In this document: piece after piece, positions 5,874 to 41,748 of the stretch
How positions within the stretch are numbered: position 1 is the first letter of the stretch
Layout: each line of letters begins with the position of its first letter
Assembly: GCA_014379965.1 (NCBI GenBank)
Contig: JACMKU010000059.1
Span: 1 to 41,748 of the forward strand
DNA from: Chitinophagaceae bacterium
Lineage (GTDB): Bacteria; Bacteroidota; Bacteroidia; Chitinophagales; Chitinophagaceae
Length of the DNA: 41,748 nucleotides
Direction: 5' to 3'
The notes under the pieces: generated by a model
Databases searched by the model: none
What the model was told of the DNA's origin: nothing
The model's input: only the letters and a program-made list of their open reading frames with translations
Translations under genes and position numbers: made by a program

Positions 5874-6157
5874 GGAAAACAGGCAAGTGAGTGTGGAATT
5901 TCGTGAGTGGGCACCTGCTTCGGAATCATCTATAAAATTCTTATTGTGGTATTCGCTTCTATATATATTACTCCTGTTGTTCAGCTTCCTATGCTGAATA
6001 GCGGTATGGACGTACAAGAGTGCGACGCAACAAAAGCCTAATAGATATTCTGCAGCCGGGTTCATAATACTCATGCCCTCTCTCATCGCTGACGGCTAGC
6101 TTAGTAGACACTGTTCGTGGTCCTAAACTTTAAACATTAAACGTTCAACGTTTCATA
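5874..6157. other. Gap between holB and ricT with possible structured element
   Basis: A 284-base gap with no credible gene; the reverse-strand frame across it (5829-6086) overlaps holB and has no family I recognise. Two things stand out. A 6-pair hairpin lies at 5980-5998 within a non-AT-rich block (about 5980-6065), unlike ordinary spacer sequence here. A four-unit period-7 tract lies at 6125-6152, just before the ricT start. The block could be a structured RNA or dispersed element; I cannot name it. Confidence 0.4.
6125..6152. repeat. Period-7 tract before ricT
   Basis: Four in-register 7-base units, such as aaacatt and aaacgtt, end 5 bases before the ricT ATG at 6158. The reverse-complement word (gtttaac type) recurs at 26179-26210. 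No opposite arm was found in the same gap. Confidence 0.65.
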
Positions 6158-7612
6158 ATGGGATGTAGTAATTGTGGCACTTCCGCTAAAGGCGGAAAAC
6201 CTAACGGATGCAAAAGTAATGGAGGATGTAGCACTGGCGGCTGCAACCGTATGAATACATATGACTGGCTCAGAAACTTGCCTATCGTTGGCGTAGATAT
6301 GGCCTGCAATGTAATTGAGGTGAGTTTCAACCAGGGTACCCGGAAAGATTTTTTCCGAAATGCGACTTTACAACCGTTCGAAAAAGGGGAGATGATATCA
6401 GTAGAGGGTGTGAGTGGCTTCGACGTGGGCGAAGTCTCCCTGACTGGTGAGATCGTGAGGCTACAGATGAAGAAAAGAGCTATCAAGGAAGATAACCCTG
6501 AGATGAAGAAAGTACTGCGTCCATCTACGGACCGGGATCTCGATCTCATGCGCCAAAACAAGGCGCGCGAGCCGGAGGCGGTGATTCGCAGCAGGGCAAT
6601 AGCTCGTCAACTGAGGCTGGATATGAAAATCAGCCAGGTCGAGATGCAGGCAGATGGAAGGAAGGCTACTTTCTTTTACATAGCAGACGGAAGGGTGGAT
6701 TTTCGCGAGCTGATAAAAATATATGCATCGGAATTCAAGGTAAAGGTTGAGATGCGGCAGATCGGTGCCAGACAGGAAGCCGGCAAGGTAGGAGGCATCG
6801 GAAGTTGCGGCCGTGAACTATGCTGCAGCACATGGCTCACGGATTTTAAATCTGTAAATACCGCCGCCGCCCGGTATCAGAACCTCTCCATCAATCAAAC
6901 GAAGTTGAGTGGGCAATGTGGAAGACTAAAATGTTGCCTCAACTATGAGCTCGATACTTACCTCGACGCATTACAACATTTCCCAGATAACTGCGACCTG
7001 CTACAGATCGCGAAAGGCAACGCGTTTCTCATAAAGAAAGACATTTTCAAAAACCTGATGTGGTATACGCTGCCAGACAGCACAAAGCAGTACCCTGTTT
7101 CAATAGAGAGCGTAAAGAAGATAAAAGCGCTAAATCAACAAGGCATCGTCCCAGATGCGTTGGAAACAGTTGAGGTAACTTCCAATAAACCAAAGGAAGT
7201 TGAACCCGAGTTCGTTGATGTGGTTGGTCAGATCACTTTGCGTAGTCTAGACAAGACTGCCGATAAGAAACGTCGCCAGCAACAACAACAAAGAGGAGGC
7301 GGAGGCCAGGGTCAGCGTTCACAACAGAGACCACAAGATGGAGGTGGCAATCAGCAACGTTCGAATCAACCACGCCAGGGCGGTCAAGGGCAAGGCGGTC
7401 AAGGCCAAGGTGGTCAGGGGCAAGGTGGCCCAGGCCAGGGTGGGAATCAGCAACGCGGTCAACAACGTGGGCCACGACCTAATCAACAAAGACCTCCTGA
7501 TAACAGACCACAAAACCCAAATCAGCAACGTCCTCCAAATCAACAACGAAATTCTCCCGGCAGGCGTCCTCCAAATCAGCCGCGACCACCGCGTCCTGAG
7601 AAAGGTGAATAA
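6158..7612 (+). CDS. ricT: RicT/YaaT (PSP1-domain) protein with long disordered tail
   Basis: RicT belongs to the PSP1 family. In Bacillus it works with RicA and RicF in an iron-sulfur complex affecting mRNA processing. This 484-residue version has a cysteine-rich N-terminus (CSNCG, GCSTGGC). The PSP1 core spans residues about 40-300, with SCGRELCCSTWL and GQCGRLKCCLNYE, the conserved cysteines of the family. From residue 371 to the end it is a low-complexity tail rich in Gln, Gly, Pro, Arg and Asn. Part of that tail is a DNA-level tandem repeat of GGQGQ units at about 7378-7440. The tail is basic and probably binds RNA or another polyanion (inference). The stop codon abuts the convergent gene with no spacer. 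Confidence 0.9.
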   Translation: MGCSNCGTSAKGGKPNGCKSNGGCSTGGCNRMNTYDWLRNLPIVGVDMACNVIEVSFNQGTRKDFFRNATLQPFEKGEMISVEGVSGFDVGEVSLTGEIVRLQMKKRAIKEDNPEMKKVLRPSTDRDLDLMRQNKAREPEAVIRSRAIARQLRLDMKISQVEMQADGRKATFFYIADGRVDFRELIKIYASEFKVKVEMRQIGARQEAGKVGGIGSCGRELCCSTWLTDFKSVNTAAARYQNLSINQTKLSGQCGRLKCCLNYELDTYLDALQHFPDNCDLLQIAKGNAFLIKKDIFKNLMWYTLPDSTKQYPVSIESVKKIKALNQQGIVPDALETVEVTSNKPKEVEPEFVDVVGQITLRSLDKTADKKRRQQQQQRGGGGQGQRSQQRPQDGGGNQQRSNQPRQGGQGQGGQGQGGQGQGGPGQGGNQQRGQQRGPRPNQQRPPDNRPQNPNQQRPPNQQRNSPGRRPPNQPRPPRPEKGE

Positions 7613-10498
7613 TTATTTTTCGATGGCCTGGTAGATGGCATCCTGGATCTTTCCCCTGATCAGGAGTTGACCGAGACGCGGATTATCACGCGTTGGAGTT
7701 ACCCGGTTTGAAAGAAAGATGTATACAAGTTCCGTTTTGGGATCTACCCACACGCATGTGCCGGTGAAACCAGTATGACCGAATGCCTGTGGTGAAACGT
7801 TTACGGAAGGATAAGGTTCTTTCCTTGTTGCGTTGTCTTTCTCGGGCTTATCGAAACCAAGTCCTCTACGACTAACATTGCTGTGATAAGCAGTAAAATA
7901 CTTTATAGTCTCGGGTTTAAGATATCGCTCTCCATTGAACTCGCCTTCGTTTAGCAACATCTGATAGAGCATTGCCAGGTCATAGGCATTTGAAAAAAGG
8001 CCCGCGTGTCCAGCAACTCCACCGAACAGTGACGCTCCTTCATCATGTACATCACCCTGGATCGTTTGCCGACGGAAATGTTTCTCCGTCTCGGTGGGAA
8101 CGATGCGATCAACTACAAACCTAGCCCTCGGCTTATAACCGGTGGTGGTCATTGCAAGCCGGTTATAAAAATTTTTTTGAACGTATTCATCCAGACTCAT
8201 GCCCGACAATGCTTCTACTATTTTTCCAAGAAAAATGAAGTCGTTGTCGCTATAGGAATATTTATTGGCTGGTCCTACTGGACTTTTCAGGATGCGACTC
8301 ATGATGGTATCGTTCCAATCATTTCGCAGGTAAAGATTCTCCGCGACGCGGAGTGTATAACCTGGCTTCGACTTTTCACTATAAATAGCGGGGTTAGGAG
8401 TTCCGGTGGCGGAGTCGATGGTCTCCCTGTAGAAAGGTATGAAAGGAACGAGACCAGCCTGGTGAAGTAAGATGTCGTCGATCTGGAGGTTAGCCTTATC
8501 GGTGCCTCTCACAATCGGGAGATAATCACCGAGTCTTTTTTTTAGATTTAGTTTTCCTTCTTCATACAGTTTCATTACTGCTACAGTTGTCGCAGAGATC
8601 TTTGTCACAGAAGCCAGATCAAAGATGCTTTCAAGGTTCATCGGTTGGGGTGAATCATAAGCGAAACTCCCAAAAGCTTTGTGGTAGACGATATCGCCTT
8701 TGTGGACGGCCAGCACTACGCAACCGGGAAAAGCCTTTTTGGCAATGCCATCACTCACGATAGAATCGATTGTCTGGAATTTACTTTCTCTTAGTACAGG
8801 CATCGCAGGCTTTATGCCACCATATGCGATACCCTCACCGTATTTGATATTGCATACCGTGACGGGAAGCGTGCCCTTGGCGATGAACTTGCCTTCAAGC
8901 AGATCGGCAGCGACATTACGCGTGATGTCATCATCCTGGTAGCATGCAACGATGTTCTTTGCCGAACAAAAATTGGATGTGGCAAGTACATTACCGAAAA
9001 TGAACGTCGCGGGGTTGAATGTTTGCAGTTGATTAACGAGGTCTATGGCAGAAGCACTAATGTTGTAGTTATTTGAGGGGCGAAGGCTATACTCGTGCAC
9101 GCCAATGATCACGGCCTCGTAGTTGCCTTTTCGAATGTTGTCGATTAACTGACCCGATTCTTTGCTGCCATCTTTGTATGAGAAAAAGTAATTGTCCGCA
9201 TCCAGGTCTTCCTGTAGTCTCTTCGCGAAGTCATTCCCGTGAGCAGTACCTACGCCTACATACGCGATCTTCTTTTCGGTAGTTAGCGGAAGTGGGAAGG
9301 GTGGATTTTTTAAAACAGTAATCGTTTGTCTGGCCGTTTCGTACCTGATACTATTAGTCTTTGCATTCAGATCATTCAGCAGGTTCTCTGTCTCGATAGG
9401 CTTTAGCTGGTTAAGACCGAGTTCATACTTCGAGTTGAGGACCTTTCTAAGTTTGGAATCGATGTCTTTCCAACTGAGTCTTTTTTCCTTGATGGCCTGC
9501 TTCACCGCTGTGATAGTTTCGGCAACGCTTTCAGGGAGACAGAGCATATCATTACCGGCGATCAGTGCTTCTACGGCAATGGTTCCACCGGGAAAATATT
9601 TCGCGACTCCCTTCATCTCGAGAGCATCAGTGAAAGTAAGGCCATCATAACCCATCTTGTTCCTGAGGAGTTCCGTTACACTATTCTTTGAAATGGATGT
9701 GGCACGATTCGCAGTGTTGTCAATTGCGGGAATAAAGAGGTGAGCGATCATAACGCTCCCGACACCCGCTTTAAATATCGCCTGGAAGGGCATTAGTTCC
9801 AGTGAATCCAATTGCTCAAGTGTCTTGTTTACTACGGGAAGATCGAAGTGTGAATCGACATCTACATCACCATGACCTGGGAAGTGTTTTGCGCAGGCCA
9901 TGATGCCTGCGTCCTGCATCCCTTTCATATATGCTACACCGAATCTTGCGACCTTATTCTTATCCTCTCCAAAAGATCGATACCCAATCACTGGATTGTT
10001 AGGATTATTGTTGATATCGATTACGGGAGCATAGTTAACATGAATACCCAGTCGCTTGCATTGTTCGCCAACAGCGAGTCCCATTTCGTACACTACTTCA
10101 TCATTGGTCAATGCGCCGAGTGTTAGCTGGTACGGCATCTTCGTCACGCTGTCGAGCCTCATTCCAAGCCCCCACTCGCCATCGATGGTCACCATCAAGG
10201 GGGTCCGCGCTATGCGCTGGTAATAATTGGTAAGGTTGGCTTGTCTAACCGGTCCACCCTGGAAGAAACATAACGCACCTACATTATACTTAGTAATATC
10301 ATTTACGACTTTGGCAACGTGATCCGGTCCGAGGTTTGAGTGTGCGCGAATTACCATTAACTGGGATATCTTCTCATCATCACTCAGCGACCCGAAAACG
10401 CTATCGACCCATTTGGCCTGGCTAAGATTGCTCTTATACTGGGAGAACGATGAAACAGACGCGGACAGGAGAAGAAAGGCTACTAATAACTTTTTCAT
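7613..10498 (-). CDS. GH3 beta-N-acetylhexosaminidase fused to a beta-lactamase-fold esterase
   Basis: A 961-residue secreted fusion with signal peptide MKKLLVAFLLLSASVSSFSQ. The first half is a glycoside hydrolase family 3 (NagZ-like) domain with the general acid/base loop KHFPGHGDVDVDSH near residue 205 and the nucleophile motif FTDALEM near residue 285. The second half (about 580-955) is a class C beta-lactamase/CubicO-type serine hydrolase with SVTK (SxxK), YSDND (YxN-like) and HTGFTG. This two-enzyme chain is known in Bacteroidota and suggests peptidoglycan-fragment hydrolysis in the periplasm; the substrate of the esterase half is unknown. The gene lies alone on the minus strand, converging on ricT with no gap. 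Confidence 0.93.
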   Translation of the reverse strand: MKKLLVAFLLLSASVSSFSQYKSNLSQAKWVDSVFGSLSDDEKISQLMVIRAHSNLGPDHVAKVVNDITKYNVGALCFFQGGPVRQANLTNYYQRIARTPLMVTIDGEWGLGMRLDSVTKMPYQLTLGALTNDEVVYEMGLAVGEQCKRLGIHVNYAPVIDINNNPNNPVIGYRSFGEDKNKVARFGVAYMKGMQDAGIMACAKHFPGHGDVDVDSHFDLPVVNKTLEQLDSLELMPFQAIFKAGVGSVMIAHLFIPAIDNTANRATSISKNSVTELLRNKMGYDGLTFTDALEMKGVAKYFPGGTIAVEALIAGNDMLCLPESVAETITAVKQAIKEKRLSWKDIDSKLRKVLNSKYELGLNQLKPIETENLLNDLNAKTNSIRYETARQTITVLKNPPFPLPLTTEKKIAYVGVGTAHGNDFAKRLQEDLDADNYFFSYKDGSKESGQLIDNIRKGNYEAVIIGVHEYSLRPSNNYNISASAIDLVNQLQTFNPATFIFGNVLATSNFCSAKNIVACYQDDDITRNVAADLLEGKFIAKGTLPVTVCNIKYGEGIAYGGIKPAMPVLRESKFQTIDSIVSDGIAKKAFPGCVVLAVHKGDIVYHKAFGSFAYDSPQPMNLESIFDLASVTKISATTVAVMKLYEEGKLNLKKRLGDYLPIVRGTDKANLQIDDILLHQAGLVPFIPFYRETIDSATGTPNPAIYSEKSKPGYTLRVAENLYLRNDWNDTIMSRILKSPVGPANKYSYSDNDFIFLGKIVEALSGMSLDEYVQKNFYNRLAMTTTGYKPRARFVVDRIVPTETEKHFRRQTIQGDVHDEGASLFGGVAGHAGLFSNAYDLAMLYQMLLNEGEFNGERYLKPETIKYFTAYHSNVSRRGLGFDKPEKDNATRKEPYPSVNVSPQAFGHTGFTGTCVWVDPKTELVYIFLSNRVTPTRDNPRLGQLLIRGKIQDAIYQAIEK

Positions 10499-10637
10499 GT
10501 CGCTGAATTATTGCGACACAAGTTAACATAATCAGCACTTATTGGCTACCGGTAATTCGGTAAAATCTGCGGCAGTGCAGATTTTTCACATTTCCCTAAT
10601 GAGGATACGGATGTCATGCGGCGCAGTCTCATTTCCT

Positions 10638-10776
10638 GTTTCTCGCTCTGTTCTTGTTCCTGTTTCTGTTTTAATTTCTTTACCTACTCCTGTCAAGAGT
10701 GAGGAAACAGAAACAGGAACAGAAACAGAAACAGGAACAGGAACAGAAACAGAAAACAGGAACAGAGCGAGAAACA
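10638..10776. repeat. Hexamer-repeat inverted repeat (gaaaca/ggaaca type)
   Basis: The right arm, from 10704, is about 12 units of period 6 (gaaaca or ggaaca, one unit with an extra base), ending in gagcga. The left arm, 10638-10672, is its reverse complement. The outer 16 bases pair perfectly (10638-10653 with 10760-10775), and the next 19 pair with one bulge. The same word and the same agagcgag flank recur at 14496-14544 and 37111-37202. Confidence 0.85.
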
Positions 10777-10787
10777 AAGCGGGCCTG

Positions 10788-10812: not shown

Positions 10813-10847
10813 AGCGAGGGGCAGCTTAGCGATGCTGGCAAATCCCG

Positions 10848-10867: not shown

Positions 10868-10875
10868 AAGTTATT

Positions 10876-13297: not shown

Positions 13298-13853
13298 TAA
13301 AAAAAATAGTTCTTTTTTCGAAACAGATAGTTAATTGCTTTTTTGCTTCACTAAGATGCCATTTACTGGTGCCTTCGCTAATGTCCAGTAGCTGGGAAAT
13401 TTCTTTGTGTTTATATCCCTCTATAACGTAGAGATTGAACACTGCGGCGGCCATTTCTGGCAATTGCTTAAGGAAATACAAGATCTCCTCTGCCGATTTA
13501 TCAATGATCGTTTCAGGTTGTATCGTCGGTTCGTTGGACTCTGTCCATTCTACTGTCGACACTTCCAGTTTCTTTTTTCTTAAGAAATCGATCGCGGTTC
13601 TCACCATGATCGTGTGTATCCAGGTATAAAGGGCCGATTTTCCAATATCATAGTTGCCTATGTGTTGAAACACCTTAAGCAGGCCTTCATGTAAGACTTC
13701 AATAGCATCTTCTTCGTTCTTGGTATAACGATAACAAAGCGCCATCATGGGATTGTAAAATCGCTTGTACAGTTGTTCCTGCGCCTTTCGATCGTTGGCG
13801 ACACAACCGGCCACAAGCTGGTAGTCAGGTATGACATTTTCAGGTACAGACAT
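13287..13853 (-). CDS. ECF-type RNA polymerase sigma factor
   Basis: A 188-residue sigma-70-family protein with only regions 2 and 4. Region 2 includes CYRYTKNEEDAIEVLHEG and TWIHTIMVRTAIDFLRKKK (-10 recognition and melting). Region 4 has LPEMAAAVFNLYVIEGYKH followed by the helix-turn-helix ISQLLDISEGTSKWHLSEAK. Its 3' end overlaps the start of the putative anti-sigma gene by 11 bases, the usual layout of a sigma/anti-sigma pair. It has its own promoter. Similar in length and sequence to the sigma factor at 16038-16622, so the two are paralogues. Confidence 0.92.
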   Translation of the reverse strand: MSVPENVIPDYQLVAGCVANDRKAQEQLYKRFYNPMMALCYRYTKNEEDAIEVLHEGLLKVFQHIGNYDIGKSALYTWIHTIMVRTAIDFLRKKKLEVSTVEWTESNEPTIQPETIIDKSAEEILYFLKQLPEMAAAVFNLYVIEGYKHKEISQLLDISEGTSKWHLSEAKKQLTICFEKRTIFFNGK

Positions 13854-14046: not shown

Positions 14047-14495
14047 AAGGGACTAAGGTTATAAGAGAAAAGAAAAATTCAATTTTTGGTGGTTAATCAA
14101 AGGTGGTAGCTTTTCAGTGGAAGTAAGGATCTTAAATGTGTGTAAACATTAACTCATGGGCATTGATTTTGGTTTTAGTTCGGTTAAATAATGGATTGTC
14201 ATTTTCAATGAACATTACGACTTATCATGGGTACGGATAAAAACGGGTATTACAGATTGATAAGTAATATGCCATTGTTGGTTTTCATAATTGGACAATG
14301 ATCTTTCATCGGATTGGAATCGTGGTTCATCAAGGGTTGGATACGGGCTTCGAAGGATATTGGTCGGTGTTCTGTAGGATTGGATTTCTAACTGCTCTAT
14401 TAAGTTATACGGGGGCGGAGAGGGAAGGGTTGGTGATTGGCGGTATTTTTTTTAAGAAAGATTCTTTGTTATTTAGAATCAGTGGATTATAGAAT

Positions 14496-14544
14496 GAGAA
14501 ACAGAGCGGGAGCGAGGACGTACCCCGCTCCCGCTCTGTTTCTC
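14496..14544. repeat. Perfect 19-pair hairpin (gaaacagagcg type)
   Basis: 14496-14514 and 14526-14544 are exact reverse complements around an 11-base loop, starting 10 bases past the stop of the barrel-type anti-sigma gene. There is no T-run on either side, so it is not a classic terminator. The arm shares GAAACAGAGCG-type words with the repeats near mutL and psd. Confidence 0.85.
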
Positions 14545-14553
14545 GCTCTCCTC

Positions 14554-16041
14554 CTACATCCTCCCCTTACGGGACCTCCACAACTCATATCGTAGAAACA
14601 ACTGCAGCGATTGATTCCGTTCCTCCCTCAGTTGTCCACCCGGGAGCGTGAATTTGAGATAAGGCTGTAGTCCAAAGGAATAACGAGCACCTACTGCAAA
14701 TCTCTTCCACCTGAACTGCGTCTCGACCACAGCCTGGAAATAGGATTTTGCAAAATTGGAGTCGGACTCGCTTGACTTTAAGATGACGCCTTTGCTAATG
14801 ATACTATCCGTCTGAGAAGAATTGTTTCTCTGGTTGACATCCCTCTCGGAAATTGCACTGTTAAATTTGTTCCATACCAAACCAGTTCCGATAGACCAGT
14901 CCTTCATGATGAAATAATTAAACGTGAGAGGTAACTGGTGATAAAATGTCTTCTTGAGTTTGGTCGACGTAGTAGTGGTGACCGTACCGAATGTATCTGA
15001 AACTATTTCCTCACCGTATACAAACTCGCGGTTGTATTGTGGTGCGCCATACCTGAATTCCGAATGTATGAACCACGCATCTCCTTTGTACATTCGGAAA
15101 TATACCGACGGCACATAGTCCGCTAAGGAGCCCTTTCTTCCGGCCGAGTTGTAGGGGGTTAATTTTTGTCCAGCAATCGGTAGCAGTTGATGCACACCTA
15201 TTCCAGCACCGAAAAATATTTCCTTCTTTTTTGCTGTGTCTTTCTTTTGCGCCGGCTTCTCAGCAACCGGGGGAGTCAACGTAGTATCAGGTCGTTTGCT
15301 CGATAGAGCGACGGTATCAACTTTTTTGGTATCGTCCAAGTTCTGTCTTACCGTGTCTCTGCTTGTCGATGCTACAGGCGTATTTGTAATTGGCTCGTGC
15401 GACGGATTCTCTATGAGTGTAGATGGTTTAGTCGGAACCTTAATATCCGATCTGTTATCATCAACCAATCCGGTAATCTTCTTCTGATTAGGGTTTCTCC
15501 TTTTATCTGTTTTTTTCGTAGCGACCTTTTTTCCATTCGTTGTCCGTACTGTCGCCTTGCCTTTAGCAGCGGATCCCCTCGGGGGAGCTTGTACTTCAAT
15601 ATCTATTGATGAGGGCGTGACCTTGGGAACGCGTTCATTGTTGTGCTGTTCAGTCGTTCCTGGCTTCGAATGCGAAACACTGGAATCAATTGGTGTCGCA
15701 GTATCACCTTTAATAACCAGAGCATTGCTGGCTGGCGAGTTGCGTGAAGTATCAGTCGACTTCTTCGTGCCTTGTTCAGTTTCATCTTTGGTGATGCTCT
15801 TAGTTTCCTGATCACTCCTCCACAATTTGTCTGGCCTAACGATCCACCAGCCTAAGGCGATTACGAGCAGGCCAATGAGTCCCCACATACCGCAGCCAGT
15901 TAACCAGAAAGGAACAATAGGAGGATTATCATCCTCGTCCAGCCTGCGCTTCATGTCCTCCCATGCCATGTCCTCATCGGGCACGGGAAGGTTGTCCCAT
16001 TGCTTTGCCAATTTATCCTCGTATGGTAAACGATCACTCAT
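14554..16041 (-). CDS. Dual-membrane anti-sigma-like protein: cytoplasmic domain, TM helix, long linker, outer-membrane beta-barrel
   Basis: A 495-residue protein with four parts. Residues 1-43: charged cytoplasmic region with MAWEDMKRRLD. Residues about 44-68: a single transmembrane helix. Residues about 70-270: a Ser/Thr/Lys/Pro-rich, presumably unfolded linker. Residues about 275-495: alternating beta-strands with aromatic girdles (FFGAGIGVHQLLP, GDAWFIHSEFRYGAPQYN, QLPLTFNYFIMKDWSIGTG), typical of an outer-membrane barrel. There is no signal peptide. The start overlaps the sigma gene stop by 4 bases. This is the architecture of the dual membrane-spanning anti-sigma factors (Dma) reported in Bacteroides thetaiotaomicron, so it probably relays outer-membrane state to the sigma factor. 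The relationship is inferred from layout. Confidence 0.85.
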   Translation of the reverse strand: MSDRLPYEDKLAKQWDNLPVPDEDMAWEDMKRRLDEDDNPPIVPFWLTGCGMWGLIGLLVIALGWWIVRPDKLWRSDQETKSITKDETEQGTKKSTDTSRNSPASNALVIKGDTATPIDSSVSHSKPGTTEQHNNERVPKVTPSSIDIEVQAPPRGSAAKGKATVRTTNGKKVATKKTDKRRNPNQKKITGLVDDNRSDIKVPTKPSTLIENPSHEPITNTPVASTSRDTVRQNLDDTKKVDTVALSSKRPDTTLTPPVAEKPAQKKDTAKKKEIFFGAGIGVHQLLPIAGQKLTPYNSAGRKGSLADYVPSVYFRMYKGDAWFIHSEFRYGAPQYNREFVYGEEIVSDTFGTVTTTTSTKLKKTFYHQLPLTFNYFIMKDWSIGTGLVWNKFNSAISERDVNQRNNSSQTDSIISKGVILKSSESDSNFAKSYFQAVVETQFRWKRFAVGARYSFGLQPYLKFTLPGGQLREERNQSLQLFLRYELWRSRKGRM

Positions 16042-18512: not shown

Positions 18513-19859
18513 TTAGTATCGGGACCTTATTCCCTGGAGAAATTTCTCGACCGCCCGCCTGATCTCCGTTGCCGAAGATTGGTGGTTGTTTACCAATACA
18601 GAGAAAATGAGCTGTTTACCTTTCTTAGTATACAGGAAGCCGCTGAAGGCTACTACCCCACTGAGTGTGCCAGTCTTACCATATATATAGGTACTGTCCG
18701 ACTTGTAGTAGCTGCTGATTGTACCTTCGCCCCCGGTGGCGAATATCGTCTTGATCCGATCCATTCCAAATTCATCCTTCATTTTTCCAAGAATAGTAAC
18801 GAAGTCCCGGGGACTAAAGAGATTGTAACGGCTAAGGCCCGAGCCATCAGCCCATCTTGGCTTCTGTGGCAGGTCCTTAAAGTCGGTCTTGAGTATGGTG
18901 TCGACGATCCTGTAGTCGCTCATTATTCCCAATCGCACATGACTTACCATCAGCAATAGTTGCTCGGCGAAAAAATTATCGCTACGGTGCATCATAGGTT
19001 TCAACACCGAATCGGTGGGCTGGCTAAAAACAGTCTTACCAGGAGCGGCGGGCAAGGGTGATTTATGTGTCGCAGGAAGAACAGGAGTTGGCAACTTCAG
19101 GGTATCCGCCAATAGTTTTTCTATTACACGGCCGTTATCAGTATCGAAAGTGACATTTAAAGTCGCAGGTTTAGTTCCGCCTCCCGTTATTGAGAAACGA
19201 TTCCCTGCACGGATCCTGCTCACTTCTTTGAAGTATGAGTTTTTAGAGGTCGTATCGAGTGTAAGGGATTCGATCACGTTTCCAGGCATGACAAGAGGAG
19301 ATCCCACTGTCCCGGCAAATTGAACAACATTTCCATAGATCGGCATTGCACTTCTTTCAGCCATATAGGTGGCTTCGTAATCATTCCATGACCATCCCGA
19401 ACCAAGAGGATTAGTTTTCCAACCGGATAGGTCGATATTTATCCGCTTCTTTGTCTTCCTGAGAAATTCGAGAACGGGTTGATTAGGAAATTCAGCAAGC
19501 AGGAAAGTTGGATCTCCACCAGGCTGTATATATATATTATCTCCGGGTGCCTCGTAATAGGTCAGGCCAACCAAACTATCGCCTAAATATTTCATGGCGA
19601 CATAACATGTTGGAATTTTCGTGTTGCTTGCAGGTATGAAATACTTATCACCCTGGAAATCGAACCAATACTTGCCAGTGGCGGGTTCAAAGATGGTGAT
19701 ACCCACATGTGCAGCCTTCAACGAAGGGGCCTCGAGAACAGTTTCGCTTGCGGAACGGCCCAGCTTCTTTTCAATGGTACAAGATGAGAGAAGGAATGTA
19801 AAATTTAGAATATAAAATGTAAAATGTAAAAGGCGACCCTTCGGTTTGTAGTTATTCAT
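18513..19859 (-). CDS. dacB: D-alanyl-D-alanine carboxypeptidase (PBP4/DacB type, family S13), lipoprotein
   Basis: A 448-residue penicillin-binding protein trimming peptidoglycan stem peptides in the periplasm. All three active-site motifs are present: SNTK (SxxK) in IPASNTKI near residue 78, SDN (SxN) in HRSDNFFAE near residue 296, and KTG in YGKTGTLSG near residue 397. The N-terminus is a lipoprotein signal with lipobox LLSSC (Cys near residue 27). Its hydrophobic core, HFTFYILNFTF, is encoded by the period-7 repeat at 19794-19833. No other in-frame ATG offers a signal peptide, so this start seems right. The domain I spacing matches the compact Bacteroidota form. It lies downstream of the Gfo/Idh gene. 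Confidence 0.93.
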   Translation of the reverse strand: MNNYKPKGRLLHFTFYILNFTFLLSSCTIEKKLGRSASETVLEAPSLKAAHVGITIFEPATGKYWFDFQGDKYFIPASNTKIPTCYVAMKYLGDSLVGLTYYEAPGDNIYIQPGGDPTFLLAEFPNQPVLEFLRKTKKRINIDLSGWKTNPLGSGWSWNDYEATYMAERSAMPIYGNVVQFAGTVGSPLVMPGNVIESLTLDTTSKNSYFKEVSRIRAGNRFSITGGGTKPATLNVTFDTDNGRVIEKLLADTLKLPTPVLPATHKSPLPAAPGKTVFSQPTDSVLKPMMHRSDNFFAEQLLLMVSHVRLGIMSDYRIVDTILKTDFKDLPQKPRWADGSGLSRYNLFSPRDFVTILGKMKDEFGMDRIKTIFATGGEGTISSYYKSDSTYIYGKTGTLSGVVAFSGFLYTKKGKQLIFSVLVNNHQSSATEIRRAVEKFLQGIRSRY

Positions 19860-19972
19860 TCCCTATGCATTTAGAATTCTATTTAGAAAAATCAAAATGT
19901 AAAACGACTTTCGAGCGAAATGACTCTACACCTTTTACATTTTATATTCTACATTTTAGATTTTACATTTTC
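19794..19972. repeat. Period-7 inverted repeat (aaatgta type) spanning two gene ends
   Basis: Left arm 19794-19833, right arm 19931-19972, spacer about 97 bases. A 19-base core pairs exactly (tagaatataaaatgtaaaa at 19806-19824 with the complement ending at 19951). The left arm has one more 7-base unit than the right. The left arm codes for the PBP4 signal peptide. The right arm contains the last codons and the stop of the Gfo/Idh gene. Confidence 0.85.
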
Positions 19973-21046: not shown

Positions 21047-21162
21047 GTTTAAAAGTTTAAAGGTTTAAGAGTTTAAAAGTTCTGCCAGTTCGCAACTTCG
21101 TTATTTATGTGAAGATTCAAGGTTAAGAACTCTTAAACCTTAAAACCATTAAACTTTTAAAC
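21047..21162. repeat. Period-8 inverted repeat (gtttaaa type)
   Basis: Left arm 21047-21083 is four 8-base units (gtttaaaa, gtttaaag and so on) plus gttct. Right arm 21126-21162 is the reverse complement with four units, differing at a few positions. The spacer is 42 bases. It lies between the Gfo/Idh start and the pseudo-ureohydrolase stop. Confidence 0.85.
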
Positions 21163-22346: not shown

Positions 22347-22456
22347 GTGAATGGTGAGGGGTGAATAGTGAGTGGCTCTCCGACCTTCGGTCATGCATTA
22401 CTGTTTCGTAACTATAAACTGCCCTCAAATTTAGAGAGCCACTCTCTATTCACCAT
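22347..22456. repeat. Period-7 inverted repeat (gtgaatg type) at the pheS promoter
   Basis: Left arm: four 7-base units from 22347 (gtgaatg, gtgaggg, gtgaata, gtgagtg) followed by gctctc. Right arm: 22434-22456. The inner 20 bases pair with one mismatch (22361-22380 with 22434-22453), spacer 53 bases. The right arm ends at the first base of the pheS -7 box. Confidence 0.85.
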
Positions 22457-22463
22457 ATCTTTG
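22456..22463 (+). promoter_or_regulatory. -7 box of pheS
   Basis: TATCTTTG, a perfect TAnnTTTG, lies 5 bases before the ATG at 22469, so the message should be essentially leaderless. It directly abuts the right arm of the period-7 hairpin. There is no TTG at -33. Confidence 0.55.
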
Positions 22464-23513: not shown

Positions 23514-23562
23514 GTTAGGCGTTAGGTGTTAGGCGGGAGACGGGAGACGGGAGGCGGGAGAA
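23514..23562. repeat. Period-7 tract (gttaggc / gggagac)
   Basis: Seven exact 7-base steps: three gttagg-type units and then four gggag-type units, beginning 4 bases after the pheS stop. The word changes part-way while the period is kept. No opposite arm was found in the rest of the gap, but the complement of these words occurs in the tract at 30253-30280. Confidence 0.85.
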
Positions 23563-26166: not shown

Positions 26167-26178
26167 AGAATCGTTTTC

Positions 26179-26316
26179 GTTTAACGTTTAAGGGTTTAAC
26201 GTTTAACGTTCTAAATTTGCGGAGTTATTACTAATGCGCGATGGGTGTCGTAAGGAGCAGGAACAATTTTGACGACGGAGTCCACTCACTATTGACCACT
26301 CACCACTCACAATTCA
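26179..26316. repeat. Two period-7 tracts (gtttaac type and ccactca type)
   Basis: 26179-26210 holds four gtttaac/gtttaag units with one extra base. 26282-26316 holds five units such as ccactca and caattca. The words of the two tracts do not pair with each other. The second is the complement of the gtgagtg words found at 22347 and 30101. Confidence 0.75.
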
Positions 26317-27425: not shown

Positions 27426-28499
27426 ATGCAAAAACGAAGTTCCGGCCTTGTTTTCCTGTTACTATTATCCTCGTTCCTCAGTGTCGCCCAGTACAATGTT
27501 ACCGGCAGGATCATAGATTCCGCCAGTAAGGAACCAATGAGCGGCGCTTCAGTTTTTTGCCAGAACACCACTATCGGCACAGTCTCTAATAAGCAGGGTG
27601 AATTCTCCCTCTCCTTGAAATCTGGGGGTTATGAACTTATCATATCCTATACAGGTTATCAAACTAAACAGATCCAGATCAATCATACCGATACTCGAAT
27701 TCCCGAAATCGAAATGATTAAAGAGGAGAAGAGCCTTGGTGAGGTGATCATCAAAAGCAGCAATGAAGTAAAGGATGGCTGGGAGAAGTACGGCACGTTT
27801 TTCCTCGAGCATTTCATAGGCACTACTCCCAATGCGGCCAGGACCGTGTTGTTGAATCCAGAGGTGCTGAAGTTTTATCTACTTAAGAAAAGTAATAAGT
27901 TAAGAGTACTGGCGACAGAACCGCTACAGATTGAAAACCGTGCGCTTGGATATAACATGCGTTTCCAACTCGACTCGTTCATGTACCATTATAATACAGA
28001 TATTAATCTCTATAGAGGATATTGTCTTTACTCGGAGATGGAGGGTGGTGATAGTCTCAGGAGGGCATGGGCTCAGAACCGTCGAAATGCCTACTTCGGT
28101 TCAAAATTGCATTTCATGCGCAGTTACTACGATAGTAGCGTTGTGGAAGAAGGATTCGTGATTGACCTACTGGATGAAAATATCAATACGCGGTTCAATA
28201 AGGTAGCCGACGTGTATGACACAACTTATTATGGTGCGTTAGATAGTACGGGCCAGATCGAGATTTGGTTTCCAAGAAAATTCAGTATCACCTATACTAA
28301 GAAGAAGCCTGACTTGGAGTACCTGAAGAAATATAAACTCCCCAAGAATGTTTCTACCCAGATATCCTATATAGAGATGATCGATGGTATCGCCATCAAG
28401 GAGAATGGATATTACTATGAACAGAAGGACTGGATCAACCAGGGATTCTGGAGTTGGAAGAACCTGGCGGATCAGTTGCCGTTTGACTATTCACCATAA
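27426..28499 (+). CDS. Secreted protein with N-terminal carboxypeptidase-regulatory-like domain
   Basis: A 357-residue exported protein with signal peptide MQKRSSGLVFLLLLSSFLSVAQ. Residues about 23-110 form the carboxypeptidase D regulatory-like fold common on Bacteroidota surface proteins (GRIIDSASKEPMSGASVF, then GEFSLSL, then YTGYQTKQI). The remaining 240 residues are a conserved-looking mixed domain with many Tyr and Asp residues that I do not recognise. It is too short to be a TonB-dependent receptor and has no plug or barrel. Its stop is followed directly by a nine-unit period-7 repeat. Confidence 0.82.
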   Translation: MQKRSSGLVFLLLLSSFLSVAQYNVTGRIIDSASKEPMSGASVFCQNTTIGTVSNKQGEFSLSLKSGGYELIISYTGYQTKQIQINHTDTRIPEIEMIKEEKSLGEVIIKSSNEVKDGWEKYGTFFLEHFIGTTPNAARTVLLNPEVLKFYLLKKSNKLRVLATEPLQIENRALGYNMRFQLDSFMYHYNTDINLYRGYCLYSEMEGGDSLRRAWAQNRRNAYFGSKLHFMRSYYDSSVVEEGFVIDLLDENINTRFNKVADVYDTTYYGALDSTGQIEIWFPRKFSITYTKKKPDLEYLKKYKLPKNVSTQISYIEMIDGIAIKENGYYYEQKDWINQGFWSWKNLADQLPFDYSP

Positions 28500-28642
28500 G
28501 CAATAGGCAATAGGCAATAAGCAATAGGCAATAAGCAATAGGCAATAAGCAATAGGCAATAGCCAAATCGCAAATGACCATTGCTAAAAATCATTGCTAA
28601 TTACTGTTATAGGGGTGCTTGCCTATTGGCTATTGCCTATTG
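28500..28642. repeat. Period-7 inverted repeat (gcaatag type)
   Basis: The left tract is nine perfect 7-base units (gcaatag or gcaataa), 28500-28562, starting right after a stop codon. Right arm: 28621-28642. Seventeen bases pair exactly (28550-28566 with 28626-28642). The right arm contains the stop and last codon of the LpxD-like gene on the minus strand. Confidence 0.93.
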
Positions 28643-29590
28643 ATTCTTCCTCCCCATGACTTTCTCCCATAGCTCCGGAATACGCTTGATCCAAACAAGC
28701 TCCTTCATTTTCTCCCTGGCGTCTTCGACGGGAGAGCCGAAGTAGACTTTTTTGCCGGCGATTGAATCCTTGACCCCGCTCTGAGCATATACTGTCGCCC
28801 CCTCACCGATGGTAAGCGTTTTACTTACTCCCACCTGTCCCCATAATATAACGTTGTCCTCGATAGTAGTTGCGCCCGCTATGCCGACCTGTGCTGCGAA
28901 GAGGCAATTGCTGCCGATCAAGGTGTCGTGACCAATGTGCACGAGGTTGTCCATCTTAGTGCCTGCGCCAATGAGCGTGTCGCTCGTCACTCCACGGTCG
29001 ATAGTACATCCCGCCCCGATCTCAACGTCATCCTGGATGTTTACTCCACCACAACTCGTCATCTTCTTATAGTGTGACTTGCGATCAGTTTTCTTGTTGT
29101 AATAAAAAGCATCGCTCCCTATCACTGTGCCTGACTGGATGACCACCCTGTCGCCAATCGAGGTATAGTCGAGAATGGTTGTATTGGGATGGATTATGCA
29201 ATTCTTGCCAATAGTGACGTGATTTCCGATGTAACTGTTCGGCATTATCACTGTCCCTTCTCCAATCGTGGAAGTGTCGCTGATCATTTTCGTAGAGGGG
29301 CGGAAGGGTCTGTAATGGTCTACGATCGCCAGGTAGGCCTCAAAGGGATTTTCTACAATCAATAAAGCTTTCTCCTTTGGGAAATCAAGTTTCTTGTTAA
29401 TGATGATAAAACTCGCTGCGGAGTTTATGCATTTCTCATAATACTTCGGATGGTCAACGAAAGCCAGGTCTCCCTTCTCCACCCTGTTCAATTCGTTGAT
29501 GCCGGTAGCCGATGCCTGGGTATTACCGATTAGGTTGGCCTTTATCAACCTGGCTAATTCCTGGAGAGGGACTGGTGCGGAGAAACGCAT
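28637..29590 (-). CDS. LpxD-like UDP-3-O-acylglucosamine N-acyltransferase
   Basis: LpxD adds the second hydroxy-acyl chain in lipid A synthesis. The 317-residue product (start at ATG 29590, MRFSAPVPLQEL) has an N-terminal uridine-binding-like region (GDLAFVDHPKYYEKC). A left-handed beta-helix of hexapeptide repeats follows (about 115-270; IGEGTVIMPNSYIGNHVTIG and many similar turns), with HIGHDTLIG carrying the expected active-site histidine. It is shorter than typical LpxD (about 340). No other lipid A gene is near, so it may be a second copy or a divergent acyltransferase. The frame is open to 29743, but a good -7 box lies inside that extension. Confidence 0.85.
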   Translation of the reverse strand: MRFSAPVPLQELARLIKANLIGNTQASATGINELNRVEKGDLAFVDHPKYYEKCINSAASFIIINKKLDFPKEKALLIVENPFEAYLAIVDHYRPFRPSTKMISDTSTIGEGTVIMPNSYIGNHVTIGKNCIIHPNTTILDYTSIGDRVVIQSGTVIGSDAFYYNKKTDRKSHYKKMTSCGGVNIQDDVEIGAGCTIDRGVTSDTLIGAGTKMDNLVHIGHDTLIGSNCLFAAQVGIAGATTIEDNVILWGQVGVSKTLTIGEGATVYAQSGVKDSIAGKKVYFGSPVEDAREKMKELVWIKRIPELWEKVMGRKNQ

Positions 29591-30100: not shown

Positions 30101-30301
30101 GTGAGAAGTGAATGGTGAGAAGTGAATGGTGAGTAGTGAATGGTGAGTGGCCGTCCTCATTGGCAGAAGCGAGTGAATGAAGCTAGTACTCTAGAACTAA
30201 ACAGATCCTCTGTGTATTTCGGAATACCGATTACCAATTACTGATTACCGATTGCCTCCCGCCTATTGCCTCCCGCCTCACGTCTCTTGCTTATTGCTTC
30301 T
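30101..30301. repeat. Two long period-7 tracts upstream of yicC
   Basis: 30101-30149 is seven exact units (gtgagaa, gtgaatg, gtgagta types). 30225-30301 is eleven units in perfect register, moving from tacc-type to tgcctcc/cgcctat to tgcttat words. The two tracts are not complements of each other. The second is complementary in wording to tracts at 23514 and 28500. The second ends 21 bases before the yicC -7 box. Confidence 0.9.
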
Positions 30302-33472: not shown

Positions 33473-33485
33473 TTTTAGAGGGATT

Positions 33486-33651
33486 GGCGAGTGGCTAGTG
33501 GGAAGTGGCTAGTGGGGAACCTAAGTTTGGTCACTCCCTAAGACTTACGATTAAACACTTTACAATTTATGTCAGCGGTACGAACCAATATTGACTAATC
33601 ATTCTTGAAAACTCTTCGTCCCCACTTGCCACTCGCCACTAGCCACTCGCC
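33486..33651. repeat. Period-7 inverted repeat (ggctagt type), 33-pair hairpin
   Basis: 33486-33518 and 33619-33651 pair over 33 bases with only 3 mismatches, around a 100-base spacer. Each arm is four 7-base units plus a tail (ggcgagt and ggctagt; ccactcg and ccactag). It fills the gap between the response regulator stop and the convergent batD stop. Confidence 0.93.
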
Positions 33652-37080: not shown

Positions 37081-37095
37081 GGGTGAGTTGTCAAT

Positions 37096-37230
37096 GGTGA
37101 GTGGTGAGTCCTCGCTCTGTTCCTGTTTCTGTTTCTGTTCCTGTTTCTGCTCCAGTTTCTAATTAGAAAAAGAAAGTGGAACAGAAACAGGAACAGAGCG
37201 AGAGCGAGGGCTGAATACTGACCACTCACC
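37096..37230. repeat. Nested inverted repeat: gaacag hexamers inside gtgagtg heptamers
   Basis: Inner arms 37111-37133 and 37180-37202 pair perfectly over 23 bases, with tgttcc/tgtttc hexamers and a ctcgctc flank, 46-base spacer. Outer arms 37096-37105 and 37221-37230 pair over 10 bases in ggtgagtggt words. The right outer arm contains the psd stop. The inner arm matches the repeat upstream of mutL, with the same agagcgag flank. Confidence 0.9.
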
Positions 37231-37882: not shown

Positions 37883-37949
37883 TTAGAATAATTGATCGAC
37901 AAAATTAGGCAATGAAAGGCAGGAAATAAAAAATGTAAAAGTGTGAGTG

Positions 37950-38609: not shown

Positions 38610-38632
38610 ATCATTAAGACTCGCAATTCAAA

Positions 38633-39523: not shown

Positions 39524-39536
39524 GGTCGTAAGTTTA

Positions 39537-40436
39537 TCAGTATTCCAGTTTAGCGGGCTTCGATTCCCTTTTGAAAAACAGGAACAGCATTACCAGCACG
39601 GGTAAAAGCGTAAGACTCCATAACGATGCTCCCGTCTCCTGCTGCACATCGACGGCCTTGCCTTTCTGGATAGCGTAATAGAATAACGTAATAGCCATTG
39701 CATTATTCAGGAAATGTCCAATGATGCATAACCATAGTTTTCCTGAATAATGATAAATGATCCCTAACACGACGCCCAAAAAAAATCGTGAAAGGAATCC
39801 ATAGAATGACATGTGGGCGAGGCTAAAGATCAGGCTGACAACCACGATTGCGATCCAGGGTTTATTGATTGACCTGGTCAGGAAATTCTGGAGTCCTCCG
39901 CGGAAAAGCGTCTCTTCACAAATCGCAGGCAGGAAGCCCATGACTATTAGCGCGAGGACATAATCGCCAAAGTTCTTTAACCCGAGGATGGCCTGCGCCT
40001 GTTGACTATAACTGGATTCAAGTTTATCGAATCTTGCCTTCCAGTCTGCCGGAATGGGAAGGAGGTGACTGATATGACTAAAGGCTGCCGCGATAAACAT
40101 GGCGGAGACCATGATCATACACGCGAGAGCAATCTGCTTACCGGTAATGCGTGGCGAGAATCCTAATAAGGCGAGTGGCTTGCGGTGGACCATGTGAGCC
40201 ACAATCAATGCCGGCACCAGAAATCCTAGCATGTTAATTACCTGGATGATCTTATAGACGTTTGAGAATGCGGGGTCCGTCATGCCCGAGGCAAATTGTT
40301 CGTATGTTCTTCCAGTCATCGCCGTCCATAGTTGAATGCTTATTAGTCCGGCGATGATGATGCCCCCGATCGCGAATGCAATTAGCATGAAAAAGCCCGC
40401 AGTATATGAAATTCCTTTCGAGTGGGTATCGTACAT
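39537..40436 (-). CDS. CPBP-family intramembrane metalloprotease
   Basis: A 299-residue polytopic membrane protein (about 7-8 helices) of the CAAX-protease/Abi family. The catalytic motifs are present: EETLFRG (EExxxR), SLAHMSFYG and GHFLNNAM (HxxxN). Start at ATG 40436 (MYDTHSKG); the frame is open to 40493 but the extra residues are polar and not conserved in look. First gene of the set CPBP-cdsA-barrel-psd. Its natural substrate is unknown. Confidence 0.88.
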   Translation of the reverse strand: MYDTHSKGISYTAGFFMLIAFAIGGIIIAGLISIQLWTAMTGRTYEQFASGMTDPAFSNVYKIIQVINMLGFLVPALIVAHMVHRKPLALLGFSPRITGKQIALACMIMVSAMFIAAAFSHISHLLPIPADWKARFDKLESSYSQQAQAILGLKNFGDYVLALIVMGFLPAICEETLFRGGLQNFLTRSINKPWIAIVVVSLIFSLAHMSFYGFLSRFFLGVVLGIIYHYSGKLWLCIIGHFLNNAMAITLFYYAIQKGKAVDVQQETGASLWSLTLLPVLVMLFLFFKRESKPAKLEY

Positions 40437-40589
40437 AGATTTAGCGATTAAACCATAAATTTGCAGGTTCCCCACGGGGAGTCGGGCAGGCAAAAATAGC
40501 TGACCCGTCCGAGAATGATCGACAGCCGCAGAATATTTATTTAGCTGTATTTCAGCGAGCCGCGGGATCTGTTACCCGAATTGATAACC

Positions 40590-41627
40590 ATGGTCAAGAT
40601 AGAGAATATAGAACTTCCAGACTTCCCACTTCTACTCGCGCCGATGGAAGACGTGAGCGACCCTCCATTTAGGGCCGTGTGCAAGGACAATGGCGCGGAT
40701 CTGATGTATACAGAATTTATTTCTTCTGAGGGTCTTATCCGAGATGCAATCAAGAGTCGCAAGAAGTTGGACATTTTCGATTATGAGCGTCCTGTCGGAA
40801 TCCAGATTTTTGGAGGCGACGAAGAAAGTCTGGCCTTGGCGGCTAAGATCGTAGACGTCACTAACCCCGACCTGCTAGATATCAATTTCGGTTGCCCTGT
40901 TAAGAAGGTAGCGTTGAAAGGAGCCGGCGCCGGTGTACTCAAAGATCTCGACCTGATGGTTAGACTGACCGACTCGGTCGTACGCGCAACCAGGCTGCCT
41001 GTCACTGTTAAAACAAGACTCGGCTGGGATGACCATACTAAGAATATCGAGGATGTTGCTGAAAGACTCCAGGATGTGGGAATCAAGGCACTCGCAATAC
41101 ACGGAAGAACAAGATCGCAGATGTATAAAGGCGAGGCAGACTGGACGCTTATTGGAAAGATCAAGAACAATCCACGCATTAAGATTCCCATTTTCGGGAA
41201 CGGTGACATCGATTCACCTGAAAAGGCGGTTGCATATAAGAACAGGTATGGTGTAGACGGAATCATGATCGGCAGGGCCGCTATCGGCTATCCCTGGATA
41301 TTTAACGAGATCAAACATTTCGTAAAAACGGGAGAGCATCTGCCTCCTCCTACTATCGAGGATCGCGTTGCGGTATGTAGAAAGCATCTAAAACGATCCG
41401 TTGAATGGAAGAATCCAGTGGTAGGCATCAACGAGATGCGCCGTCATTATGCCAACTATCTAAAAGGGCTTCCAAATATTAAAGAGTTTCGCAATAGGCT
41501 GGTGACGTTGAAAACGGAAGAAGAGATAAATGCAGTGCTGGATGAAATAGCGGTCACGTATGCTGGGTATGAGATTGAGAAGACGCCGATTGAGTTGGTT
41601 AATTATCATGAAAAATGCCCGGTGTAA
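40590..41627 (+). CDS. dusB: tRNA-dihydrouridine synthase
   Basis: The 345-residue flavoenzyme reduces uridines in the tRNA D-loop. TIM-barrel motifs: LLAPMEDVSDPPFR at the N-terminus (FMN-binding), INFGCPVKKV with the catalytic cysteine near residue 103, VTVKTRLGW, HGRTRSQMYKG and FGNGDI. The C-terminal helical domain includes RRHYANYLKGLP. DusB type by overall similarity. The frame starts at TTG 40581, but ATG 40590 is the better start. Divergent from the CPBP gene. Confidence 0.95.
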   Translation: MVKIENIELPDFPLLLAPMEDVSDPPFRAVCKDNGADLMYTEFISSEGLIRDAIKSRKKLDIFDYERPVGIQIFGGDEESLALAAKIVDVTNPDLLDINFGCPVKKVALKGAGAGVLKDLDLMVRLTDSVVRATRLPVTVKTRLGWDDHTKNIEDVAERLQDVGIKALAIHGRTRSQMYKGEADWTLIGKIKNNPRIKIPIFGNGDIDSPEKAVAYKNRYGVDGIMIGRAAIGYPWIFNEIKHFVKTGEHLPPPTIEDRVAVCRKHLKRSVEWKNPVVGINEMRRHYANYLKGLPNIKEFRNRLVTLKTEEEINAVLDEIAVTYAGYEIEKTPIELVNYHEKCPV

Positions 41628-41634
41628 GGTTTCA

Positions 41635-41748
41635 CGCAAAGGCGCAAAGTTCCGCAAAGACGCTAAGAGGTTCCTTCAATTCTACCTTGTATATAGTGTA
41701 TCCTGTGCGACGTTGCGAGACTTCACCTCTTGCAAAAACCCTTTGCGG
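41635..41748. repeat. Period-8 tract (cgcaaaga type), cut by the window end
   Basis: Four units such as cgcaaagg and cgcaaaga at 41635-41668 (one is 10 bases long), starting 7 bases after the dusB stop. The complement ccctttgcgg at 41739-41748 may be the start of the opposite arm, but the window ends here. Confidence 0.7.

Follow-up and report, generated by a model that had tools for sequence, protein, structure and literature searches.

The 41,748-nucleotide contig JACMKU010000059.1 of a Chitinophagaceae bacterium (assembly GCA_014379965.1), analysed here along its whole length and referred to as the window, carries between its genes short tandem repeats, or words, with periods of 6–9 bases, which often face each other as the inverted arms of a hairpin. 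Word tracts or word hairpins occupy 13 gaps, and in 8 of the 13 they form inverted pairs around spacers of 5 to 100 bases. Using our own codon-usage gene model, we delimited 19 window gaps of 60–899 bp, ten of which contain a tandem tract, seven an inverted repeat scoring at least 16, and twelve either; the thirteenth tract place, at 41634, lies beyond the last gene of the window. All tracts named in the original prediction, which was made from the letters of this window, were recovered at their places. The succession of arm, spacer and complementary arm that it described is indeed a shared design, except at 6124, 23514, 26178/26282 and 30101/30225, which are single arms or mixed pairs, and the period is kept while words change, as it had stated, with in-phase changes inside tracts such as 23514–23561 and 30225–30301.

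The genes neighbouring the hairpins are ordinary (pheS, an arginase-family gene, MutL, a BatD-type gene, phosphatidylserine decarboxylase and others), so the tracts are not one mobile island. The window hairpins sit between protein genes, outside any 23S rRNA gene, and carry no open reading frame (ORF) for the 23S rRNA intervening sequence protein (IVP). Four of the stems fold better as RNA than their shuffles (z −3.3 to −8.5), and comparison of the whole window with Rfam returned no RNA family at gathering score. From the genome-wide analysis below we favour, with moderate confidence, the reading that the tracts are arms of gene-less hairpins, most likely miniature non-autonomous mobile elements that would be mobilised in trans by small proteins of two families, the four-helix-bundle IVP and the nuclease-like GxxExxY. 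What is new is the company that word hairpins keep with IVP and GxxExxY genes; intergenic heptamers as such were already known.

Word families and unit copies in the source genome

The source genome is a draft of 221 contigs, 90.4% complete. A first pass over 770,748 sampled bases of it, with gaps counted from 60 bp up, yielded 178 tandem tracts across gaps totalling 72,684 bp, compared to 0.2 in dinucleotide-shuffled gaps (mean of five rounds) and 5 in 595,716 bp of coding sequence; the commonest lag was 7, with 62 tracts, bearing out the expected excess of period-7 repetition between genes. The predicted abundance of paired arms was confirmed as well, with inverted repeats scoring at least 16 in 117 of 331 gaps and in 0 of 331 after one shuffle. 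In a larger sample of 1,401,405 bp (gaps of 60–899 bp; the shuffle control belongs to the first pass) they were present in 219 of 635 gaps, which extrapolates to about 740 hairpins per genome; the sampled stretches came from contigs already holding a word match, so this share of 34% may be high. Genes throughout were taken from our codon-usage model, in which starts are often over-long.

Each gap had been thought to hold its own word; instead, about 14 word families recur, though a single family is found in 272 of the 288 word-bearing gaps (12 patterns). Arms are tandem 6- to 9-mers and vary widely in length. Among the 219 hairpins, family A (CGTTTAA) accounts for 42, C (GTGAATG) for 26, B (GTTTAAAAG) for 23, E (GTTGATTGG) for 22, F (CCGAAAGT) for 20, D (CGCAAAG) for 19, H for 9, G and I for 8 each, J and M for 7 each, K for 6 and L for 2, while one hairpin resembles repetitive extragenic palindromic (REP) sequences and 16 fall outside any family. 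Polarity is alike in 200 of the 203 assigned hairpins, the three reversed ones being two short-loop family G hairpins and one partly palindromic family M hairpin. Within family A, 78 of 93 arm clusters stand in outer-to-inner inverted pairs and none solely in the opposite order; an earlier subset of 45 ends passes from a conserved arm of about 34 bases to a degenerate inner motif around TCGA, and then to little conservation. The hexamer TTCGAA occurs 25 times in spacers totalling 11.5 kb, chiefly those of families A, B, C and F, against 22 times in 64.2 kb of tract- and hairpin-free gaps, making it 6.4 times denser; it was chosen out of all hexamers, a choice which 25 observed against about 4 expected survives. 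Beyond family membership, coupling between the two arms of a hairpin is weak (edit distance 3.9 versus 4.45, 17 of 300 permutations; 1 of 300 with a looser anchor; 31 of 300 for family D).

Across relatives, inverted repeats were found in 5 of 94 and 2 of 95 gaps of two same-genus genomes, where the sequences are REP-like or terminators, in 14 of 265 gaps at 43 loci around one orthologous gene, and in 13 of 70, 8 of 64, 10 of 80 and 5 of 89 gaps of genomes G027, G009, G010 and G034, respectively, the last three partly as ordinary terminators. The cultured Terrimonas ginsenosidimutans (locus L068) has hairpins in 6 of 15 gaps, and its loci L267 and L273 show this design as well. At low level the word-hairpin build is found widely, and in the source species it is greatly expanded; an assembly artefact is unlikely because this cultured strain and a 3.15-Mb contig of G027 also show it. 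The family A pattern, with 124 matches in the source genome, has none in 146 other genomes of Chitinophagaceae; the word GTGAATG is present in 18 of 58 relatives besides the source genome.

Whole units recur between different genes. At L027, positions 13399–13569 match 15521–15691 (85.5% over 173 columns), 2.1 kb apart in gaps between unrelated genes, and the match ends at the outer arm edges; at L196, 2670–2767 matches 3227–3324 (87.8% over 98 columns). One family H unit has four copies, spread over three contigs (L183/L185 89.8%, L166 83.2% inverted, L005 82.8%). Two further local unit pairs match at 70 and 77% when 189 masked spacers are compared with the whole sample, a search that gave more matching units than the first pass. 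A classical miniature inverted-repeat transposable element (MITE) with a conserved core was rejected as a candidate, the 104 first-pass spacers having given one true pair. Four unit pairs lie no more than 2.2 kb apart, a local bias; recent copies (L027, L196, L181, L186) tend to flank one or two genes within that distance. Separately, L017 14081–14470 holds a 190-bp tandem duplication (94%) that takes in a family M hairpin and its flank and looks like ordinary duplication.

Source gaps of 123, 201 and 133 bp that contain hairpins correspond to orthologous gaps of −26, −4 and 0 bp in relatives. Over all compared pairs, median gap lengths in the source versus relatives were 137 versus 54 for convergent, 159 versus 73 for codirectional and 151 versus 104.5 for divergent gaps. 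In 60 comparisons over nine source hairpin gaps, the gap of the relative contained a hairpin in four, with other words in L068.

IVP and GxxExxY genes between word arms

Genes lying between distant arms of the same family comprised eight candidates, of which two small-gene cases (GxxExxY; DHFR plus IVP) gave the lead. The two families concerned are GxxExxY (PF13366/TIGR04256) and 23S_rRNA_IVP (PF05635/TIGR02436), and the identity of examples was confirmed. We collected matches of both in five genomes and scored them with a blind measure, the best inverted repeat between two 220-base flanks; one of 18 IVP matches in other genomes, without a readable frame, was dropped. Inverted flanks scoring at least 16 surround 11 of 17 IVP loci from four other genomes and 7 of 12 GxxExxY loci from three, compared to 1 of 394 control genes from stretches of G027, G009 and G034, with none from G460 (Fisher 1e-16 and 2e-11).

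The ten IVP matches of the source genome make up nine loci, two matches being halves of one gene, and eight of these nine have one word family inverted on both sides, versus 13 of 972 control genes, from which IVP and GxxExxY loci were not purged (Fisher 9e-14; 6 of 177 controls of 90–175 aa); flanks began at the Pfam match for helper genes and at the frame ends for controls. The families at the eight loci all differ (C, E, N with the word GGCGGGA, K, L, A/B, G and I), and both GxxExxY loci also have the same family on the two sides, M and D. This two-sided layout is directly readable in the flank sequences, with family G words on both sides of the IVP gene at L287, GGCGGGA arms at L276 and family D words around the GxxExxY gene at L256. 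Between pheS and the arginase-family gene, the window carries a family C hairpin that encloses no gene (22347–22454). In the relatives L064 and L066 this gap exceeds 400 bp and contains an IVP gene (E 9.5e-34 and 2.5e-34) bounded by word arms of the AGTGGAA type; L074 has one arm of this type and no gene.

Word and protein are paired to some extent. L285 of the source genome and L273 of T. ginsenosidimutans, both with GTTTAA words, encode proteins 68% identical over 98 aa (for L273, the open piece ahead of an internal stop), and L268 and L275 (the latter from another genus), both with GTGAATG, encode proteins 54% identical; the proteins of L268 and L285, which belong to the same genome and have different words, do not align. 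Over the 26 usable of 33 loci (six lacked a recognisable frame and one lacked arms), the association of word with protein similarity is weak (Mantel-type rho 0.19, reached in 44 of 2000 permutations). In other genomes, word 11-mers common to the helper flanks and hairpins of the same genome were found for 7 of 18 IVP loci, 5 of 12 GxxExxY loci and 4 of 63 small controls. Inheritance with the protein could lie behind the sharing of GTGAATG between genera; the family A pattern occurs in the source species alone. Some IVP proteins show a weak tie, in no case reaching the curated cut-offs, to the Avd protein found in diversity-generating retroelements (bAvd 4e-4 to 3e-5, Avd 7e-5 to 2e-7), and the sole solved chain found for the L285 IVP was XCC0516 (2GSC, E 7e-4).

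Proposed origin and spread of the hairpins

Layout, pairing and lineage suggest that IVP and GxxExxY proteins drive the copying. In the mechanism we propose, a full element would be made up of word arms enclosing an IVP (or GxxExxY) gene. The encoded protein would recognise the word of its element in the form of folded single-stranded DNA or RNA and cause copies to be made in further gaps. Where the gene is lost, a hairpin would remain that the same protein still moves; slippage of words would alter arm length, and spacers would decay faster than arms, since the arms alone would be recognised. Full elements look like the intervening sequences (IVSs) of 23S rRNA and the hairpins like their gene-less offspring, as REP doublets forming hairpins (REPINs) are to REP-associated tyrosine transposases (RAYTs). 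A broader version, which we put forward tentatively and with less than even confidence, is a two-part mobile system in which each IVP paralogue would read a tandem word of 6–9 bases specific to it and copy hairpins with word arms into gaps behind genes, whether or not these hairpins include the paralogue's gene, giving the genome a set of private word–protein pairs; the IVSs of rRNA would then be a special case that landed in rRNA, and GxxExxY nucleases with CAC/CGC-type words a parallel system.

Several observations weigh against mobilisation by these proteins. No target-site duplication was detected at lengths K of 2, 3, 4, 5, 6 or 8 around the 219 hairpins, counts being near those of shuffled pairing (22 versus 16.6 ± 3.8 at K = 4; 3 versus 0.6 at K = 6). 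Several orthologous gaps match the source gaps in length although they contain no hairpin, and source gaps without a hairpin also exceed their orthologues (convergent 141 versus 42.5, six pairs; codirectional 72 versus 36). Shared spacer ancestry stands out in families A, B and F and not in C, D and E when spacers are untrimmed, and in A (10/1000) and C (13/1000) and not in D and F after trimming of 15 bases. Within the source genome, 3 of 10 IVP matches pass the blind measure versus 16 of 948 controls, the word-family patterns were partly widened after reading of the loci, which favours the result, the ninth IVP locus (L289) has family J words on one side only, and the 11-mer measure is uninformative because 129 of 181 control genes share word 11-mers. 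L276 and L279, the pair with the highest word score, have dissimilar proteins (similarity rank 302 of 325). IVP genes are carried by 157 of 198 Bacteroidota genomes, the source genome included, so their presence is not by itself an explanation of the expansion. Of 20 IVP loci from the top of the 157-genome list, five had inverted flanks and six a flank tandem tract (260-base flanks rather than the 220 of the blind measure); word arms around IVP genes are a common layout among the Chitinophagaceae genomes examined, and a patchy one in the rest of the phylum. Finally, no IVP gene was seen for word families F and H.

This last absence, which extends to helper genes in general, also speaks for a different arrangement, in which IVP and GxxExxY genes are passengers, small selfish genes living inside hairpins that another enzyme moves. 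IVP is termed functionally uncharacterised (PMC4990558, PMC11270868), and Coxiella, according to the account in PMC4990558, probably does not produce its IVS protein in vivo. On the other hand, passengers would not be expected to show one IVP locus per word family in the source genome or a tie between word and protein lineage, even one with exceptions such as L276/L279, and we regard this arrangement as unlikely, though the strongest of the rivals.

That something generates and spreads the tracts, as originally proposed, stands, but slippage in place, one of the agents named, does not fit on its own, because unit homology stops at the arms, some orthologous gaps have near-zero length and whole units recur in unrelated gaps. 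A fully in-place origin, with replication slippage making the words, template switching copying arm into arm and no mobile unit, would suit the in-phase word changes within tracts, the widely varying arm lengths and the four unit pairs within 2.2 kb of each other. The recurrence of the same families at many loci in one polarity (200 of 203), a unit on three contigs and empty orthologous gaps speak against it, and as a sole process it is contradicted by the dispersed whole-unit copies, making it quite improbable in our estimate.

The position of the hairpins raises the further question of function. They start a median of 10 nt behind stop codons versus 53 from starts (often over-long), leave a median of 20.5 bases of convergent gaps beyond the units, and are present in 60 of 114 convergent, 123 of 383 codirectional and 36 of 138 divergent gaps. 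Canonical terminators were detected at 24 of 243 gene ends with a hairpin versus 67 of 368 without (p 0.005), and at 91 of 611 ends in the source genome versus 47 of 171 in the two same-genus genomes (p 3e-4); one was found inside 177 hairpin spacers. The units may take over termination or 3'-end protection behind stop codons; the smaller number of terminators at hairpin ends fits such a take-over, but would be no different if insertions were merely tolerated at ends that need no terminator. If termination has been taken over, the 3' ends of this genome are being rebuilt by a selfish element. The distances, gap-class counts and terminator counts would also suit a reading in which selection has kept or shaped the hairpins, however they arose, as RNA elements serving as large terminators in both directions or as stabilisers of 3' ends. 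However, the terminator difference falls to p 0.07 and 0.08 when split by class, G027, with fewer hairpins, has terminators at 12 of 64 ends (G010 at 25 of 84), hairpins also occur in divergent gaps, and tolerance of insertions behind genes yields the same distribution. Private words, polarity and helper genes would be left unexplained, and we assign selection for RNA function a similarly low probability.

Mobilisation of REPIN-type elements by RAYT (Y1) transposases is very improbable, since, despite the same form of inverted arms with a less conserved spacer (as outlined in PMC3116915) and the lack of target duplication here, none of 19 Y1 loci in seven genomes has such word tracts in its 400-base flanks (one L239 flank being partly N), L116 and L117 have palindromic REPs, and G004, with 14 Y1 matches, has inverted repeats in just 5 of 94 gaps. 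RAYT was therefore rejected as the mover. These two loci (L116 1080–2000 and L117 1290–2240) hold two of the three Y1 genes of the source genome, RAYT genes of 184 aa each, flanked by the REPs CTCCTGAGCTTGTAGCTCAGGAG; GGTTAGCTTGTAGCTAACC with GGCCTCGGAGAGGCCGTC. The third, L115 on contig C217, encodes a Y1 protein of 316 aa and is bracketed by TGGGGTCAAACCTACACT repeats; the locus has 12- and 18-base units of a different kind, and its contig looks unlike the rest of the genome and is possibly contamination. A reverse transcriptase was likewise discarded, the sole PF00078 match in the source genome being partial, with an internal stop (G000:C162:866-1165).

Known repeats and further features of the window

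The short tandemly repeated repetitive (STRR) sequences of cyanobacteria are comparable heptamer repeats, and the source genome has intergenic tandem heptamers of this type in its 62 lag-7 tracts. Intergenic heptamer assemblages have been reported in Gramella, Aequorivita and Elizabethkingia, some of them absent from the shorter gap of a close relative (MacGregor 2015, PMC4679880), and the earlier statement that no Bacteroidota counterpart had been described was too strong. The heptamer repeats treated there for Beggiatoaceae, Cyanobacteria and some Bacteroidetes (TAACTGA) are, like ours, direct and intergenic, whereas the section on them describes neither hairpin arms nor a helper gene. A link between IVP and words could explain the intergenic heptamer repeats of several phyla.

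MITEs such as BrickBuilt of Porphyromonas gingivalis, which contains a 23-nt minisatellite, resemble the hairpins in being short and intergenic, with inverted ends and tandem repeats (PMC4596501). BrickBuilt, as described there, has its 23-nt repeats between small inverted-repeat ends, whereas the source hairpins, with terminal inverted repeats and no target-site duplication, have arms that are themselves the repeats. The IVP and GxxExxY loci, as putative autonomous elements, have word arms in common with the hairpins.

IVSs of 23S rRNA are sporadic and have been called selfish, and a Coxiella IVS has two to three tandem heptamers upstream of its ORF (PMC4990558); some rRNA insertions of Candidate Phyla Radiation (CPR) bacteria have no ORF (PMC11270868). 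Mobility has been suspected since 1993 (Ralph and McClelland, quoted in PMC4990558), with no mechanism, and words on either side of IVP genes, together with a large gene-less stock, turn this suspicion into a testable protein–word pairing. Predicted full elements resemble IVSs in having an IVP ORF (PF05635) within an element bearing flanking inverted repeats; lying outside 23S rRNA genes, the window hairpins are related to IVSs in build only. The source elements differ in standing between protein genes, in their tandem-word arms on both sides, in IVP paralogues each with its own word and in hundreds of gene-less copies (extrapolated), and the relevant sections of PMC4990558 and PMC11270868 give no IVS parallel to these differences.

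REPINs likewise have inverted arms, a less conserved spacer and an intergenic location (PMC3116915), and a further likeness, by analogy, is a helper gene with copies of the repeat on its two sides. Their arms are palindromic REPs linked to RAYT, whereas the source arms are tandem words, in which no tagged palindromic REP arm was recognised (no systematic tag search was made), and no RAYT gene flanked by the same repeat was found among the 19 Y1 loci. CGTC-tagged REPs (PMC3733652) form a separate palindromic family without tandem words; GTCATTGCGAG-type repeats, taken for these, also occur in the source genome as GTCATTGCGAGG ... GAAGCAATCTCC repeats (L024 3153–3359, L040 6024–6246, L171 16529–16779), nested inside family F word arms at L024 and L040. 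Six word strings had no occurrence in the literature searched, and no prior statement of heptamer hairpins or of an IVP–word link was found in the open-licence PMC literature.

Table 1. Word arms, tracts and hairpins in the window.
Feature	Position	Strand	Evidence
Single family-A-like arm, CGTTTAA words	6124..6152	-	tandem scan
Left arm, family G hairpin, CTGTTTC, period 6	10626..10671	+	inverted-repeat scan
Right arm, family G hairpin; GAAACA tract 10704-10766	10704..10776	-	tandem + inverted-repeat scans
Family G hairpin, 5-base loop, reversed polarity (1 of 3 exceptions among 203 assigned)	14491..14549	.	
Left arm, family J hairpin (AATGTAAA; AATGTAA)	19795..19833	+	inverted-repeat scan
Right arm, family J hairpin	19931..19971	-	tandem + inverted-repeat scans
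Left arm, family B hairpin (GTTTAAAAG, period 8; tract GTTTAAAA)	21047..21083	+	RNA fold z -8.0
Right arm, family B hairpin	21126..21162	-	inverted-repeat scan
Left arm, family C hairpin (GTGAATA/GTGAGTG), pheS/arginase-family gap	22347..22380	+	
Right arm, family C hairpin, pheS/arginase-family gap	22434..22454	-	inverted-repeat scan
Single arm, family N, GTTAGGC turning into GGGAGAC in phase	23514..23561	+	
Single family A arm	26178..26211	+	tandem scan
Single family C arm (CCACTCA)	26282..26310	-	tandem scan
Left arm, family I hairpin (GGCAATA; GCAATAG tract), begins at stop codon of 27426-28499	28496..28566	+	
Right arm, family I hairpin	28619..28648	-	tandem + inverted-repeat scans
Family C arm (GTGAATG)	30101..30148	+	tandem scan
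Word tract, family H into N in phase (TACCGAT to GCCTCCC)	30225..30301	-	
Left arm, family K hairpin (GGCTAGTGGGAAGT; GGCTAGT)	33485..33518	+	tandem + inverted-repeat scans
Right arm, family K hairpin	33619..33651	-	tandem + inverted-repeat scans
Left arm of nested hairpin, family C words outside family G words	37082..37148	+	RNA fold z -8.5
Right arm, nested C/G hairpin	37165..37229	-	tandem + inverted-repeat scans
Family D arm (CGCAAAG, period 8), close to window end	41634..41668	+	tandem scan

Immediately beyond the family C hairpin, on its right-arm side and ahead of pheS, lies a TATCTTTG box (22456–22463), which we take to be akin to the Bacteroidota promoter motif. Elsewhere in the window, period-15 and period-30 repeats occur at 7374–7443 within the coding sequence 6158–7612, and 7613–10498 is a single reading frame with a glycosyl hydrolase family 3 domain and a beta-lactamase-type domain.

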